DNA from: Devosia sp.
Lineage (GTDB): Bacteria > Pseudomonadota > Alphaproteobacteria > Rhizobiales > Devosiaceae
NCBI RefSeq assembly: GCF_028290645.1
Contig: NZ_JAQGJL010000069.1
Coordinates: 1-32,295, forward strand
Direction: 5' to 3'
Length of the DNA stretch: 32,295 nt
Positions within the stretch are counted from its first letter, which is position 1. Each line of letters opens with the position of its first letter. Below are positions 16,360 to 28,442 of the stretch, piece after piece. The notes under the pieces are model-generated. The model was not told the origin of the DNA and did not search any database. It was given only the letters and a program-made list of their open reading frames with translations. The position numbers were made by a program, and so were the translations under genes.

Positions 16360-17628
16360 CTAGCTGATGGCTGCCGCGAGCCACGCTGCGATGGCGAGCG
16401 TGTCCCGGTCACGGTCGACCGGTCCTACCACCTGGACGCCAAGCGGCAGGCCGAGCGGGCCCGTGCCGGCGGGGATGCTGACACAGGGGCCATGGAGCGC
16501 GGTCCAGAGCTGGTTGAAGCTCGGATCGCCCGTGAAGGCGAGACCCAGCGGCGCTTCGCCGGGCGCGCTGGGGGTGAGAATGGCGTCAATCCCGTCGAAT
16601 ACCGCCGTCATCGCCGCGCGGGCCGCGGCAAATGCCCTGCGGCCGAGCCTGACCGCCTCCGGACCACGCTCAGCTGCATTGTCGAGCATCCGGCAGAGCG
16701 CCTCCGCCAGCCGGTCGCCGTGCTCGCGGCGCTCCCACGCGAGGGCCTGTAGGCTCTCGCCGTACATGACGTCGACATGCCGCCCGAATGCCTCGTCCGT
16801 CTCCTGCGGCAGCGCGATCTCGACGATCTCGGCGCCCGCCCGGGCGGCGGCGGCAATGACTTCGTCCAGCCGCTGCCTCATCGCCGGCGTTGCCAGCTCC
16901 GCCGCAGGGCCAAGGGTGACCCCGAGGCGTGGCGCCCGATCCAGCTTCCGCGCCGGATCGCCCAGATCACGGCCGCTTATCGCACTGATGAACAACGCGC
17001 AGTCGCCGACTTCGCGCGCGAACACGCCGATGGTGTCGAGGCTCTCGCTCATCACCTTCATGCCGGCGCGATGGATGGTCCCGAAGGTCGGCTTGTAGGC
17101 GACGACACCGCAGAACGCCGCCGGCCGGATCAGGCTGCCCGCGGTCTGCGTCCCGAGCGCCAGCGGCACCGCACCATAGGCGACCGCGGCTGCCGAACCC
17201 GACGACGAGCCTCCCGGGGTATGAGCATGATTGTGGGGATTGGTCGTCGGGCCCGGTGTCATCGTCGCAAACGCCGTCGTCACCGTCTTGCCGAAGACAA
17301 CGGCACCGGCGGCCCGCGAAAGGCTGACCACGGCGGCATCCGCGACCGGCCGGTAACCGGCCCAGATCGGAGAGCCGTACTCGGTGACGAGGTCGGCAGT
17401 ATCGATCACGTCCTTGACGGCAATGGGCAATCCTGCGAGCGGCCGGTCGGAAGCGGCTGTTGCATCGGCCTGCCAGCGGTCCCGATCGGCGAGCCGGACG
17501 AATGCGCGGGTCGCCGGTTCGCGCTCCGCGCATCGCTCGAGGCAGGATTCGATCAGCTCGACCGATGAAAGCTTCCCCGCCCTGATCAACGAAAGCGCCT
17601 CACCGGCCGAAAGCTTCCAGGGCAGCAT
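16360..17628 (-). CDS. Amidase (amidase-signature family)
   Basis: 'PLAGLPIAVKDVIDTADLVTEYGSPIWAG...GPTTNPHNHAHTPGGSSSGSAAAVAYGAVPLALGTQTAGSLIRPAAFCGVVAYKP': Ser-cisSer-Lys signature. Confidence 0.96.
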   Translation of the reverse strand: MLPWKLSAGEALSLIRAGKLSSVELIESCLERCAEREPATRAFVRLADRDRWQADATAASDRPLAGLPIAVKDVIDTADLVTEYGSPIWAGYRPVADAAVVSLSRAAGAVVFGKTVTTAFATMTPGPTTNPHNHAHTPGGSSSGSAAAVAYGAVPLALGTQTAGSLIRPAAFCGVVAYKPTFGTIHRAGMKVMSESLDTIGVFAREVGDCALFISAISGRDLGDPARKLDRAPRLGVTLGPAAELATPAMRQRLDEVIAAAARAGAEIVEIALPQETDEAFGRHVDVMYGESLQALAWERREHGDRLAEALCRMLDNAAERGPEAVRLGRRAFAAARAAMTAVFDGIDAILTPSAPGEAPLGLAFTGDPSFNQLWTALHGPCVSIPAGTGPLGLPLGVQVVGPVDRDRDTLAIAAWLAAAIS

Positions 17629-17767
17629 GCGGAACCTCGCCTCCAGCGGTTCTCAGTTCGGTAGCAAAACACCGTCTCCGCGGCAATCCGGCACCAGACG
17701 GGGCGCCGGTCCGGTGCTGGATGTTGCTGGGCCGGCCACAGGTCAAGCCGCGTTCCTGCCCGTTGGC

Positions 17768-18763
17768 TCAGCGCTCGATGACGCCCGGAAAGTCCTTCTG
17801 CGCCTGCTGCAGCAGCGCCGCGATGTAGCCGAAGCAGAAGGCGAAGGCGACGCCGTCCGGGTCGGGGCCGCTGATGTGCGGCACATGGTCTGGCATCAGC
17901 ATGTATTTGTAGCCGACCTCGGCATAGATCCTGACCGACTCGACCATGTCCATGTCGCCCTCGTCCGGGAAGGTCTCCATGAACGAGAGCTTGCCGCCCC
18001 GGATATTGCGGAAGTGGACGTTGAACAGTTTCCCGCGCGTCCCGAACCAGCGGATGATGTCGCCGATCTCATCGCGCGGGTTGTCGAGCATCTCGCCGAC
18101 CGTGCCCTGGCAGAAATTGAGCCCGTGATACGGGCTCTCGCGCATCTGGACGAACTTCTTCAACCCCTCGACGGTGCCCAGCACCCGCGTCACGCCGCGA
18201 TAGCCCGGCGGCGTATGGGGATCGTGCGGATGGCAGGCGAGCCGGACCTTGGCCGATTCCGCCACCGGCACGACGCGCTCGAGGAAGTAGTCGATGCGCT
18301 CCCAGTTCTCGTCCTCGGAGACGACGCCGGCCAGCGTCGGCGCGGCGTTCTGATCCATCTTGTCCCAGCGGAAGCTCGAGTTCCTCGAGCCACCGCGGCC
18401 GGTCTCCGGTTCCGAGCGCGGGATGCCGATGATGTTGAGGTTGTATTTGACCGACGGAATCCCGGCCGCGCCGACATTCTCGATCAGCCGGCAGATCGAG
18501 TCGATCTGGCGGTCCCGGTTGGGACCCTTGGAAAGGATGTCCTGGCTGTCCTGCTTCTCGATGACCTTCGAGTTCATCGGCAGCTGCACCATGTCGAGGA
18601 TCAGCCCGAGCGACTCCACGCGCTCGCGATGCGCCTTCAGCGTATCGAGCGTCCAGTCATGCGGATTGCCGTCGGGGTCGGCGCAGATGTGGCGTACGCC
18701 CAGCTGTGCAAACTGGCGGTAGTGATCGTCGTCACGCGCCGCGTTTTGAGTTCCCAGATACAA
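17768..18763 (-). CDS. uxuA: Mannonate dehydratase (UxuA-like)
   Basis: 'LGLILDMVQLPMNSK...VKYNLNIIGIPRSE...RLACHPHDPHTPPGYRGVTRVLGTVEGLKKFV...GLNFCQGTVGEM...KLFNVHFRNIRGGKLSFMETFPDEGDMDMVE'. Confidence 0.9.
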   Translation of the reverse strand: MYLGTQNAARDDDHYRQFAQLGVRHICADPDGNPHDWTLDTLKAHRERVESLGLILDMVQLPMNSKVIEKQDSQDILSKGPNRDRQIDSICRLIENVGAAGIPSVKYNLNIIGIPRSEPETGRGGSRNSSFRWDKMDQNAAPTLAGVVSEDENWERIDYFLERVVPVAESAKVRLACHPHDPHTPPGYRGVTRVLGTVEGLKKFVQMRESPYHGLNFCQGTVGEMLDNPRDEIGDIIRWFGTRGKLFNVHFRNIRGGKLSFMETFPDEGDMDMVESVRIYAEVGYKYMLMPDHVPHISGPDPDGVAFAFCFGYIAALLQQAQKDFPGVIER

Positions 18764-18814
18764 GTCGTCCTCCCGATAGCCCTGGATTGTCTTTGTGATT
18801 GAAGGCGCCCGCGG

Positions 18815-19744
18815 TCATTTCGCCGCCGGTGCCCCGAGGTTCTTCAGCCCGTCGATCAGCGCCTTGAGCTTTTCGTCTTCTTCGACCGTGAGGTCGGTGA
18901 AGGGCGGCCGCACCGGCCCTGCCGGACGCCCCGTCACCCGCATCCCCGCCTTGACGATGCTCACGGCATAGCCGCGCCGGCGGTTGCGGATGCCGATATA
19001 GGGGAGGACGAACCCGGCCAGCGCCCGCTCCACCCATTGGAGGTCGCGCGAGCGCACCGCTGCATAGAACTGCATCGAGAATTCCGGGATGAAGTTGAAC
19101 ACTGCCGACGAATAGGTGGTGACACCCATCTCCTGGTACGGCAGCGCGAACGTCTCCGCCGTCGGCAGCCCGCCGACATAATGCAGCCGGTCGCCCAACC
19201 GCACCCGGATGCGCGTCATCAGCTCGATGTCGCCGACCCCGTCCTTGAACCCTACGAGGTTCGGGCACTCGTCGCAGAGCCGCGCCAGCGTCGCGTCGTC
19301 GACAATGGCGTTGTCGCGGTTATAGACGATCACGCCGAGGCTGGTGGATTTGCACACCGCCTTGATGTGTTCGAAGAGCCCCTCCTGGTCGGCCTGCACG
19401 AGATAGGGCGGCAGGAGCAGCAGCCCGTCGGCCCCGGCCTCTTCCATCGCCCCGGCATATTCGATCGCCATCATCGTGCCGTAGCCGCAGCCGGCGACCA
19501 GCGGCATCGAGCGGTTGATCTCCTCGACCGCCGCCCGCACCACCCGGGCGCATTCGGCCGGCGCCAGCGAGAAGAACTCGCCCGTGCCGCCCGCCGCGAA
19601 CAACCCGGCTGGCTTGTGGTCGCACATCCAGCCGATATGGCTGCGATACCCCGCCTCGTCGAACGTCAGGTCGGCATTGAAATGCGTGACCGGGAAGGAC
19701 AGCAGTCCAGACGCCACCACATCCATCATTGCTTTGGGCGACAT
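18815..19744 (-). CDS. kdgD: 5-dehydro-4-deoxyglucarate dehydratase (KdgD-like, DHDPS superfamily)
   Basis: '[52 protein letters not shown]...[10 protein letters not shown]...[15 protein letters not shown]'; ATG at 19744 (TTG at 19762 alternative). Confidence 0.92.
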
Positions 19745-19906
19745 TTGAGATCGATTGGGCAAAGCTTGTCCCTCTGGCTGCGCTGCAGCCGGTTGTTCGG
19801 ATCACCGCAGCGATCCAGCGCGCTTCCACTGGACCACCAAGCCCCAGGGTATCCGGATGCTACCCTCGGCGCCTCGGTGGCGACAACGAGATAGTTCGAG
19901 TTGCAT

Positions 19907-19931
19907 GGAACCCTAAGCACGCAGCGGCGTT
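19907..19931 (+). promoter_or_regulatory. EcfG-type (general stress sigma factor) promoter GGAAC-N16-CGTT
   Basis: GGAAC 19907-19911, CGTT 19928-19931, 31 nt before the histidine-kinase start. Confidence 0.75.
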
Positions 19932-19961
19932 TACGGCCTCGGGCTAGGGGGTCTTGGGCTG

Positions 19962-21464
19962 ATGGACTTGGTGATGGAAATACCGTCGCGGGCCGAAACG
20001 GGTGATACCGCTGCGCTGCTTCGACTGACGGATCGGCTTTATCGCGTCGATAGTCTCGATGATGTATTCGGCGCCGCACTTGACGCCATCACCGAGTTGC
20101 TCGGATGCGAACGCGCCTCGATCCTGCTCTTCGATGATCTCGGAGTCATGCGGTTCGTCGCCTGGCGGAAGCTTTCGGATGCCTATCGGCAAAAGGTGGA
20201 CGGGCACACGCCCTGGAAGCCGGGCGAGAGAGACGTGGCGCCGATCTTCGTCTCCGACATCGCAACGACCGCGGAGCCTGATTGGCTGAAGCAGACGCTG
20301 TCCAATGAAGGCATCACCGGCCTCGGCTTCGTTCCCCTCATGGCGAAGGGTGAGGTGGTCGGAAAGTTCATGACCTATTTCCCCGAGGTGCACGAGTTCA
20401 CCTCGCACGAGCGCGAGCTCGCCGTCGCGATTGCACGCCAGGTCGGCTTCAGTCTCGAGCGCTACCGGGCGGACTCGGCGCGCACGGCGACCGAGCGGCG
20501 GCTGCGCGAAAGCGAGGATCGCTTCCGCCGGATGTCGGAAGACGCTCCGATAATGATCTGGATATCCGACAGCGCCGGCCACTGCCTTCACCTCAACCAG
20601 ATGCTGAGAACGTTCTGGGGCGTGACCGAACTGGAGGGCTTCGACTGGGCCTCGACGATCCACCCCGACGATCAGCAGGCCATTGGGGCGGCGATGGCGG
20701 AGGCGATCCGAACCCGCAGCAGCGCCCGCGTCAAGGGACGCTACTGCCGGCACGACGGCGTCTATCGGATCCTCGAAACCGTGGCGCGACCCAACTATGC
20801 CGATGATGGCCGCTTCGACGGCATGATCGGCGTGAACGTCGACGTCACGGAGCGTGAAGAGGCCGACCAGCACAAGCAATTGCTGATCAACGAGCTGAAC
20901 CACCGGGTGAAGAACACGCTTGCAGTCGTCCAGTCGGTGGCGCGCCAGTCGTTCAAGGGCGATGCTTCGATCGACGCAAAGGTCAAATCGTTCGAGGGAC
21001 GGCTGTCGGCTCTGGCACAGACCCACAATCTCCTTGCGGCCGAAAGCTGGCAGAGCGCCTCGCTGGAAGAGGTCGTCCGGCAGTCGGTGAACGGTGACGC
21101 CGATGTCCGAATTCGGATCGCCGGTCCCAGGGTCCAGCTCGAACCCAAGCAGGCGGTGACCACGGCGATGGCGCTCCACGAGCTCTATACCAACGCGGTG
21201 AAGCACGGGGCGCTGCGATCCACCGATGGAACAATCGATTTTACCTGGCAGACCACGGATGAGCCCGGGCAGTGGCTGACGATGCGATGGCAGGAGACCT
21301 GTCGCGAGCCGATACAGAAGCCCACCCGCCGCGGCTTCGGTTCGACCATGATCGAGAAGGCCCTGGGCGCCGAGTTCAATGCGGAGGTCGAGATGAACTA
21401 CCTGCCCGAAGGCCTGGTCTGCACCGTGGTAGCGCGCAAGCCCGCGAGCCTCGAGACCCGATGA
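19962..21464 (+). CDS. GAF-PAS sensor histidine kinase of HWE/HisKA_2 type
   Basis: GAF-like N-term, PAS/PAC ('RFRRMSEDAPIMIWISDSAGHCLHLNQ...GRYCRHDGVYRILETVARPNYADDGRFDGMIGVNVDVTEREEA'), phosphoacceptor 'LLINELNHRVKNTLAVVQSVARQSF'. Confidence 0.94.
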   Translation: MDLVMEIPSRAETGDTAALLRLTDRLYRVDSLDDVFGAALDAITELLGCERASILLFDDLGVMRFVAWRKLSDAYRQKVDGHTPWKPGERDVAPIFVSDIATTAEPDWLKQTLSNEGITGLGFVPLMAKGEVVGKFMTYFPEVHEFTSHERELAVAIARQVGFSLERYRADSARTATERRLRESEDRFRRMSEDAPIMIWISDSAGHCLHLNQMLRTFWGVTELEGFDWASTIHPDDQQAIGAAMAEAIRTRSSARVKGRYCRHDGVYRILETVARPNYADDGRFDGMIGVNVDVTEREEADQHKQLLINELNHRVKNTLAVVQSVARQSFKGDASIDAKVKSFEGRLSALAQTHNLLAAESWQSASLEEVVRQSVNGDADVRIRIAGPRVQLEPKQAVTTAMALHELYTNAVKHGALRSTDGTIDFTWQTTDEPGQWLTMRWQETCREPIQKPTRRGFGSTMIEKALGAEFNAEVEMNYLPEGLVCTVVARKPASLETR

Positions 21465-21835
21465 GCACTGTGGCGGGAAAGCGCGTACTGGTTCTCGAAG
21501 ACGAGTTCCTGCTTGCCATGGAAGCCGCGGAAACGCTGGAGGACCTTGGCGTGGTGGTCGTCGGGCCGGCTTACCGGATCGATGCGGCAATGGCGCTGCT
21601 TGCGACCGAGCAGGTGGATGCCGCCCTGCTCGACGTCAATATCGGCGGAATGCCCAGTTCGGTTGTCGCGGACCATCTCATTGCCCGGGGTGTGCCGGTC
21701 GTCTTCGCCACCGGCTACGGGGCGCGGGCGGATGTCGTCTCCGGCCATGTGATTCTCGACAAGCCCTACACCCGTGAACAGATGCGGGCCGCCCTGCTTC
21801 AAGTGCTGGGCTACGAGAAGGAGCCTTCGCGCTGA
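21461..21835 (+). CDS. Single-domain response regulator (receiver only)
   Basis: 'RVLVLEDEFLLAMEAAETLEDLG...DAALLDVNIGG...GVPVVFATGYG...ILDKPYTREQM'; ATGA overlap with kinase gene. Confidence 0.93.
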   Translation: MSTVAGKRVLVLEDEFLLAMEAAETLEDLGVVVVGPAYRIDAAMALLATEQVDAALLDVNIGGMPSSVVADHLIARGVPVVFATGYGARADVVSGHVILDKPYTREQMRAALLQVLGYEKEPSR

Positions 21836-27560: not shown

Positions 27561-28442
27561 ATGCTGCAAGTCGTCGATCCGCACATCCACCTGTGGGACC
27601 TCTGGACCCGCATCTACCCGCATTTCGAAAAGCCGGGCAAAGGCGGCGCCAATGCCGCGATCTCGCGCAGCTACCTACTCGAGGAATATCTCGAGGAGGG
27701 CGGTGACGAGGTCGAGGTGGTCGGCGCGGTGCATGTCGAGGCCTTCCCCACCGATCCGGTGAAGGAAAGCGAGACCCTGCAGGCGGTGGCCGATCGCAGC
27801 CCCGTGCCGATCGTGCTCGTCGCCCATGGCGACCTTGCGGCGCCCGATTTCCCCGCCCTGCTCGACCGCCACGCGCAGTTCCCGATCTTCCGCGGCATCC
27901 GGCAGGTGGTGAACCGGCATGCGGACCCCAGGCTCAACTACATCACGCGCGACCTGATGTACGAGCCGACCTGGATCGACGGTCTCAAGGAACTCGGCCG
28001 CCGCGGCCTGTCGTTCGACCTGCAGCTCTATCCGCACCAGATGGAGAAGGCGGCGGAGCTCGCCGCCGCGGCGTCCGATACGCAGATCATCCTCAACCAC
28101 GCCGGCATGTGGGCGGATCGCGATCTGGCCGGCTGGAAGGCCTGGAAGGCCGGGATGCGGGCACTTGCGGCAGAGCCGAACATCGCGGTGAAGATCAGCG
28201 GGCTCGGCATGCTGGACAAGGCCTGGACGGTGGAGAGCTTCCGGCCGCTGGTGCTTGAGACCATCGAAATCTTCGGCACGGATCGGGCGATGTTCGCCTC
28301 GAACTTCCCCGTCGACAAGCTGACCAGCGATTTTCCGACGCTGTGGAAGGCGTTCGCGAGGATCACCGAGGGCGCGTCGGAGACTGAAAAAGCGGGATTG
28401 TTCCGCGACAATTCGAGAAAGTTCTACCGCATTTCCAACTGA
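27561..28442 (+). CDS. Amidohydrolase-superfamily sugar lactonase (L-rhamnono-/L-fucono-lactonase-like, COG3618 type)
   Basis: 'VVDPHIHLWDL...FPIFRGIRQVVN...GLSFDLQLYPHQM...IILNHAGMW...VKISGLGMLDK...MFASNFPVDKL'. Confidence 0.88.
   Translation: MLQVVDPHIHLWDLWTRIYPHFEKPGKGGANAAISRSYLLEEYLEEGGDEVEVVGAVHVEAFPTDPVKESETLQAVADRSPVPIVLVAHGDLAAPDFPALLDRHAQFPIFRGIRQVVNRHADPRLNYITRDLMYEPTWIDGLKELGRRGLSFDLQLYPHQMEKAAELAAAASDTQIILNHAGMWADRDLAGWKAWKAGMRALAAEPNIAVKISGLGMLDKAWTVESFRPLVLETIEIFGTDRAMFASNFPVDKLTSDFPTLWKAFARITEGASETEKAGLFRDNSRKFYRISN

Follow-up and report, generated by a model that had tools for sequence, protein, structure and literature searches.

The window, a stretch of 32,295 nt that makes up contig C232 of a Devosia sp. 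genome (family Devosiaceae; 4.36 Mb in 423 contigs, 91% complete), carries adjacent genes for a sensor histidine kinase and a response regulator behind an EcfG-type promoter, with the following features.

19907..19931, + strand: EcfG-type promoter, an exact match with GGAAC (-35) at 19907-19911, a 16-nt spacer and CGTT (-10) at 19928-19931
19932..19961, + strand: 5′ leader region of 30 nt, read from the sequence
19949-19953, + strand: G-rich ribosome-binding stretch, read from the sequence
19962..21464, + strand: GAF-PAS-HWE sensor histidine kinase of 500 aa, predicted soluble (Pfam, motifs, structure alignments)
21461..21464, + strand: ATGA overlap of the receiver start with the kinase stop, suggesting translational coupling
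21461..21835, + strand: receiver-only (single-domain) response regulator of 124 aa, FATGUY type (Pfam, PDB neighbours, motif positions)

An earlier note on this DNA had placed GGAAC at 19907 and, exactly 16 nt further on, CGTT at 19928, which the exact match bears out, but its distance of 31 nt between promoter and kinase has to be corrected to 30 nt, with the kinase ATG at 19962. Judging from the promoter type, transcription would start at about 19937-19942. The promoter sits in a 199-nt gap between this ATG and a divergent DHDPS-family gene (18815-19762, minus strand), and the receiver gene is followed by a minus-strand MFS transporter gene. Amidase-like, mannonate-dehydratase-like and DHDPS-family genes (16360-19762, minus strand) adjoin the pair, a context absent at both orthologous loci described below.

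The kinase comprises the Pfam domains GAF_2 (residues 31-166), PAS_3 (221-292) and HWE_HK (311-389); the description in the earlier note of a GAF-PAS-HWE kinase overlapping a receiver-only regulator by ATGA holds for the domains as well as for the sequence at 21461-21464. Membership of the HWE family is indicated by an HWE_HK score of 90.2 bits against a cut-off of 22.8, an HRxxN box (HRVKN) with the phospho-acceptor His314, an N box (HELYTN, from residue 406) with its histidine H406, and the W-x-E motif (W443-x-E445), with GFG following at 458. The protein was aligned to the Brucella LOV-HK (6ph4) and to the GAF structure 3hcy. Identification as a LOV photosensor was rejected with the NCBIfam blue-light kinase model at 159.9 bits, below its cut-off of 450, and the LOV cysteine motif GxNCRFL is absent from the kinase. 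Likewise, the kinase was not accepted as PhyK, the NCBIfam PhyK model scoring 24.4 bits against a cut-off of 750.

In the receiver, Response_reg is the only Pfam domain (36.0 bits against a cut-off of 30.2), and the protein has no output domain. The acidic pocket is kept, with E13-D14-E15, D58, N60 (D+2), T84, Y86 (T+2) and K101, and the FATGUY motif reads PVVFATGY against the consensus PFxFATG(G/Y), Val replacing the first Phe, which places the protein among the FATGUY receivers. Such receivers are thought to hand phosphate on from one kinase to another and not to work through an output domain (PMC9981736), and in MrrA the combination of Asn at D+2 and Tyr at T+2 has been tied to a stable phosphoryl group (PMC5964349). 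The closest solved relatives of the receiver are Sma0114 (2lpm, 72.5 bits) and then SdrG (5ieb, 53.2 bits).

The earlier note made its stress-response proposal depend on the presence of ecfG, phyR and nepR in the genome, and all three are found on contig C417, giving a complete PhyR-NepR-EcfG locus. It comprises phyR (two PhyR sigma-like domains plus a receiver), nepR (50 bits against a cut-off of 25.7) and an ECF sigma gene adjoining nepR; a CHASE3-HisKA_2 kinase is also encoded on this contig. Directly beside the ecfG gene lies a receiver-only protein without the FATGUY motif (L017:8969-9337). Seven HWE-type kinases were detected in the genome. A second of these, on contig C131 (L019:2158-3879, minus strand; 573 aa), is preceded by GGAAC-N16-CGTT at a distance of 55 nt from its ATG, lies downstream of a truB-like gene and gives a weak dCache match below the Pfam cut-off. 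On contig C322 (L089:1465-1860, minus strand) another receiver-only regulator has SdrG as its best solved relative (76 bits) and is the candidate phosphorylation hub of the genome, although it reads PYFFASAS where FATGUY receivers have PFxFATG(G/Y). The window receiver was not taken as the SdrG/MrrA hub of the genome, since the C322 receiver is nearer to SdrG.

Whether the promoter is more than a chance match cannot be read from counts. The exact form GGAAC-N16-CGTT occurs 41 times genome-wide against 44 times for the reversed control, so that the bare 9-base motif is not significant and a judgement by genome counts alone is uninformative; within the window the N15-18 form was seen twice against 0.97 expected, the second, loose match (27989-28015, N18) lying inside a predicted amidohydrolase gene and being set aside. 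That exact matches are no commoner than those of the control is what would favour a chance occurrence, with the kinase gene expressed from another promoter. The position of the motif argues strongly the other way. With one crude coding filter applied to both sets, a site being counted if no gene-like frame covered it and one began shortly after it, 17 of the 41 motif sites were upstream of gene-like starts, compared with 2 of the 32 control matches listed (Fisher P = 5e-4), the control set representing 30 loci among the matches listed. Motif sites occur before phyR, csbD, DUF1328-like and Ku-like genes, all names except phyR being read from translations. The phyR, csbD and Ku-like genes are typical EcfG targets, and further genes of this kind also have motif sites before them. 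When the 200 nt preceding the kinase gene were shuffled with dinucleotides preserved, 18 of 20,000 shuffles contained the motif, and the same test on the two Devosia orthologues gave 22 and 27.

These orthologues, from Devosia sp. Root413D1 (75%) and a Devosia MAG (68%), were identified in a search of genome contigs, and no others were found among the 136 family genomes searched. Both carry GGAAC-N16-CGTT, whose first base lies at -56 or -51 relative to the ATG (-55 in the window), even though only 2-6 of the 16 spacer positions agree and 11-23 of the 60 positions upstream, figures that are near chance. It is therefore by its position, through the enrichment at gene starts, the shuffles and the conservation in both orthologues, that the motif is significant. 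The motif also recurs before homologous kinases of other families and before exsG of Sinorhizobium meliloti, whose published promoter (SMb20933, PMC6180224) is found verbatim on pSymB (L139:2616). With the motif enriched at gene starts, kept in place between diverged flanks and shared with these homologues, a chance match is highly improbable and the promoter was judged to be real. The EcfG-type promoter call of the earlier note is likewise upheld by the orthologues, the gene-start enrichment and homology to the RpoE2-dependent exsG promoter, and on these sequence grounds control of the pair by EcfG is well supported.

The distribution of the pair is sporadic. It is present in 3 of the 136 genomes of the family and hence cannot belong to the core of the pathway, and the neighbouring genes differ between the window and both orthologous loci. 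In both orthologues, as in S. meliloti exsG-exsF, the kinase and receiver genes lie side by side and either abut or overlap. Across the Hyphomicrobiales, the GAF part as query retrieved ten strong homologues in other families, and at 10 of the 16 homologous loci examined the motif (N16-17) adjoins the kinase start, compared with about 0.08 expected from the remaining matches (18 matches in 252 kb, both strands), the loci coming from about six families and not being independent. The proximal motif is missing at the other 6 of these 16 loci, and the one strong homologue found outside the Hyphomicrobiales lacks it too. At three loci from one genus (L132, L134 and L135) homologous kinases without the proximal motif have GGAAC-N16-GGTT about 20 nt past the kinase stop, ahead of whichever gene comes next. 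The motif also precedes 3 of 10 other HWE/HisKA2 kinases with readable upstream DNA; such promoters are thus common before these kinases and not private to this clade. It may tentatively be proposed, with somewhat less than even confidence, that the kinases with this GAF domain, in most cases with a receiver as partner, make up a portable cassette that passes between Hyphomicrobiales genomes and inserts at unrelated sites together with its own EcfG promoter. Were this the case, each recipient genome would acquire a feedback branch that is already wired up and has a new sensor.

By analogy with LovK-LovR, the pair is probably an EcfG-controlled accessory module of HWE kinase and FATGUY receiver that feeds back on PhyR phosphorylation. 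Phosphorylated PhyR would sequester NepR and so free EcfG, upon which the kinase and receiver genes would be transcribed as one operon from 19907-19931, a predicted step that is well supported. The soluble kinase would then autophosphorylate on His314 and exchange phosphate with Asp58 of the co-translated receiver, which is likely from the residues and the homology of both proteins. Since the FATGUY receivers and HWE/HisKA2 kinases of the pathway exchange phosphate promiscuously, the pair would feed back on the relay through which PhyR receives phosphate, and it would depend on the signal perceived by the GAF and PAS domains whether the kinase supplies phosphate or withdraws it. That the pair is linked to PhyR, and with which sign, we infer by analogy; dampening appears more likely, the pair acting, like LovK-LovR, as a phosphate sink made only once the response is on. 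The receiver residues and EcfG control together fit a feedback branch. Against a feedback module count the rarity of the pair (3 of 136), the weak PhyK match (24 bits) and a receiver nearer to Sma0114 than to SdrG, as do the 6 of 16 homologous loci and the one strong homologue identified beyond the order that are without the proximal motif.

The pair had been called an input module in the earlier note, a plausible reading, for which the nearest precedent, LovK-LovR, nevertheless points to dampening. An activating input, in which a kinase sensing through GAF and PAS phosphorylates PhyR directly or via an SdrG/MrrA-like hub receiver to give positive feedback, would be in keeping with the FATGUY receivers SdrG, MrrA and Mext_0407, which promote the response, and with the finding that most HWE/HisKA2 kinases of Sphingomonas melonis phosphorylate PhyR and SdrG (PMC5964349); moreover, apart from the window receiver, no receiver found in the genome has the FATG(G/Y) motif in exact form. 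It is nonetheless rather unlikely, as the C322 receiver (76 bits to SdrG) is the better hub candidate, the pair is accessory, and a hub is required before EcfG is active while the window pair would be made afterwards. The window pair could instead be an output of the stress response, raised by EcfG to act on some other process, for instance motility, storage polymer or carbon catabolite repression, as has been proposed for SMa0113/Sma0114 of S. meliloti. That S. meliloti pair depends on RpoE2 and has an effect on succinate-mediated catabolite repression (PMC6180224, PMC5964349). While Sma0114 is the closest solved receiver and sugar-acid and sugar-uptake genes surround the window pair, the neighbourhood differs at the two orthologous loci, making the metabolic context probably incidental, and SMa0113 has no match to the GAF domain of the window kinase, so that such an output is unlikely here.

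The feedback branch favoured here looks like an already-known type of stress-response module, of which this copy is new. It extends the examples of kinase/receiver pairs under stress-sigma control by a testable one that is not photosensory; sporadically distributed yet keeping its promoter, it shows how the general stress response of Alphaproteobacteria can gain accessory sensors. The literature searched yielded no study of this pathway in Devosia.

Among known systems, the ExsG-ExsF pair of S. meliloti (SMb20933/SMb20934) resembles the window pair in its GAF family (that of ExsG being 3hcy), its HWE core and a receiver directly downstream, and GGAAC-N16-CGTT ends 31 nt before the exsG ATG compared with 30 nt in the window. 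ExsG, at 907 aa, differs in carrying two additional PAS domains at its N-terminus and a further one ahead of the HWE core, and ExsF is 38% identical to the window receiver with LLTGYT in place of FATGYG. In other rhizobia the name ExsG denotes a receiver-HWE protein of the bacteriophytochrome cluster with a different architecture (PMC3899027). The exsG-exsF and SMa0113/Sma0114 pairs are direct RpoE2 targets (PMC6180224), and the transcription starts of exsFG and SMa0113/114 have RpoE2 motifs (PMC3616915). SMa0113-Sma0114 is likewise an RpoE2-dependent HWE kinase with a FATGUY receiver, Sma0114, known for succinate-mediated catabolite repression (PMC5964349), being 42% identical to the window receiver, but SMa0113 matches the C-terminal part of the window kinase, the PAS domain weakly and the GAF domain not at all. 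SdrG of Sphingomonas and MrrA of Caulobacter are also FATGUY partners of HWE/HisKA2 kinases, and MrrA shares Asn at D+2 and Tyr at T+2 with the window receiver; both are hub receivers of the core pathway, whereas in the window genome a different receiver (C322) is nearer to SdrG. In Caulobacter, SigT controls lovKR and the LovK-LovR pair dampens the stress response by draining phosphate from MrrA (PMC5964349). Like the window pair, it combines an HWE-family kinase and a single-domain receiver in one operon under EcfG-type (SigT) control, but LovK is a LOV photosensor where the window kinase has GAF-PAS, LovR is not termed FATGUY in that source as the window receiver is here, and the phosphate-sink activity, demonstrated biochemically for LovK-LovR, is for the window pair a predicted one.
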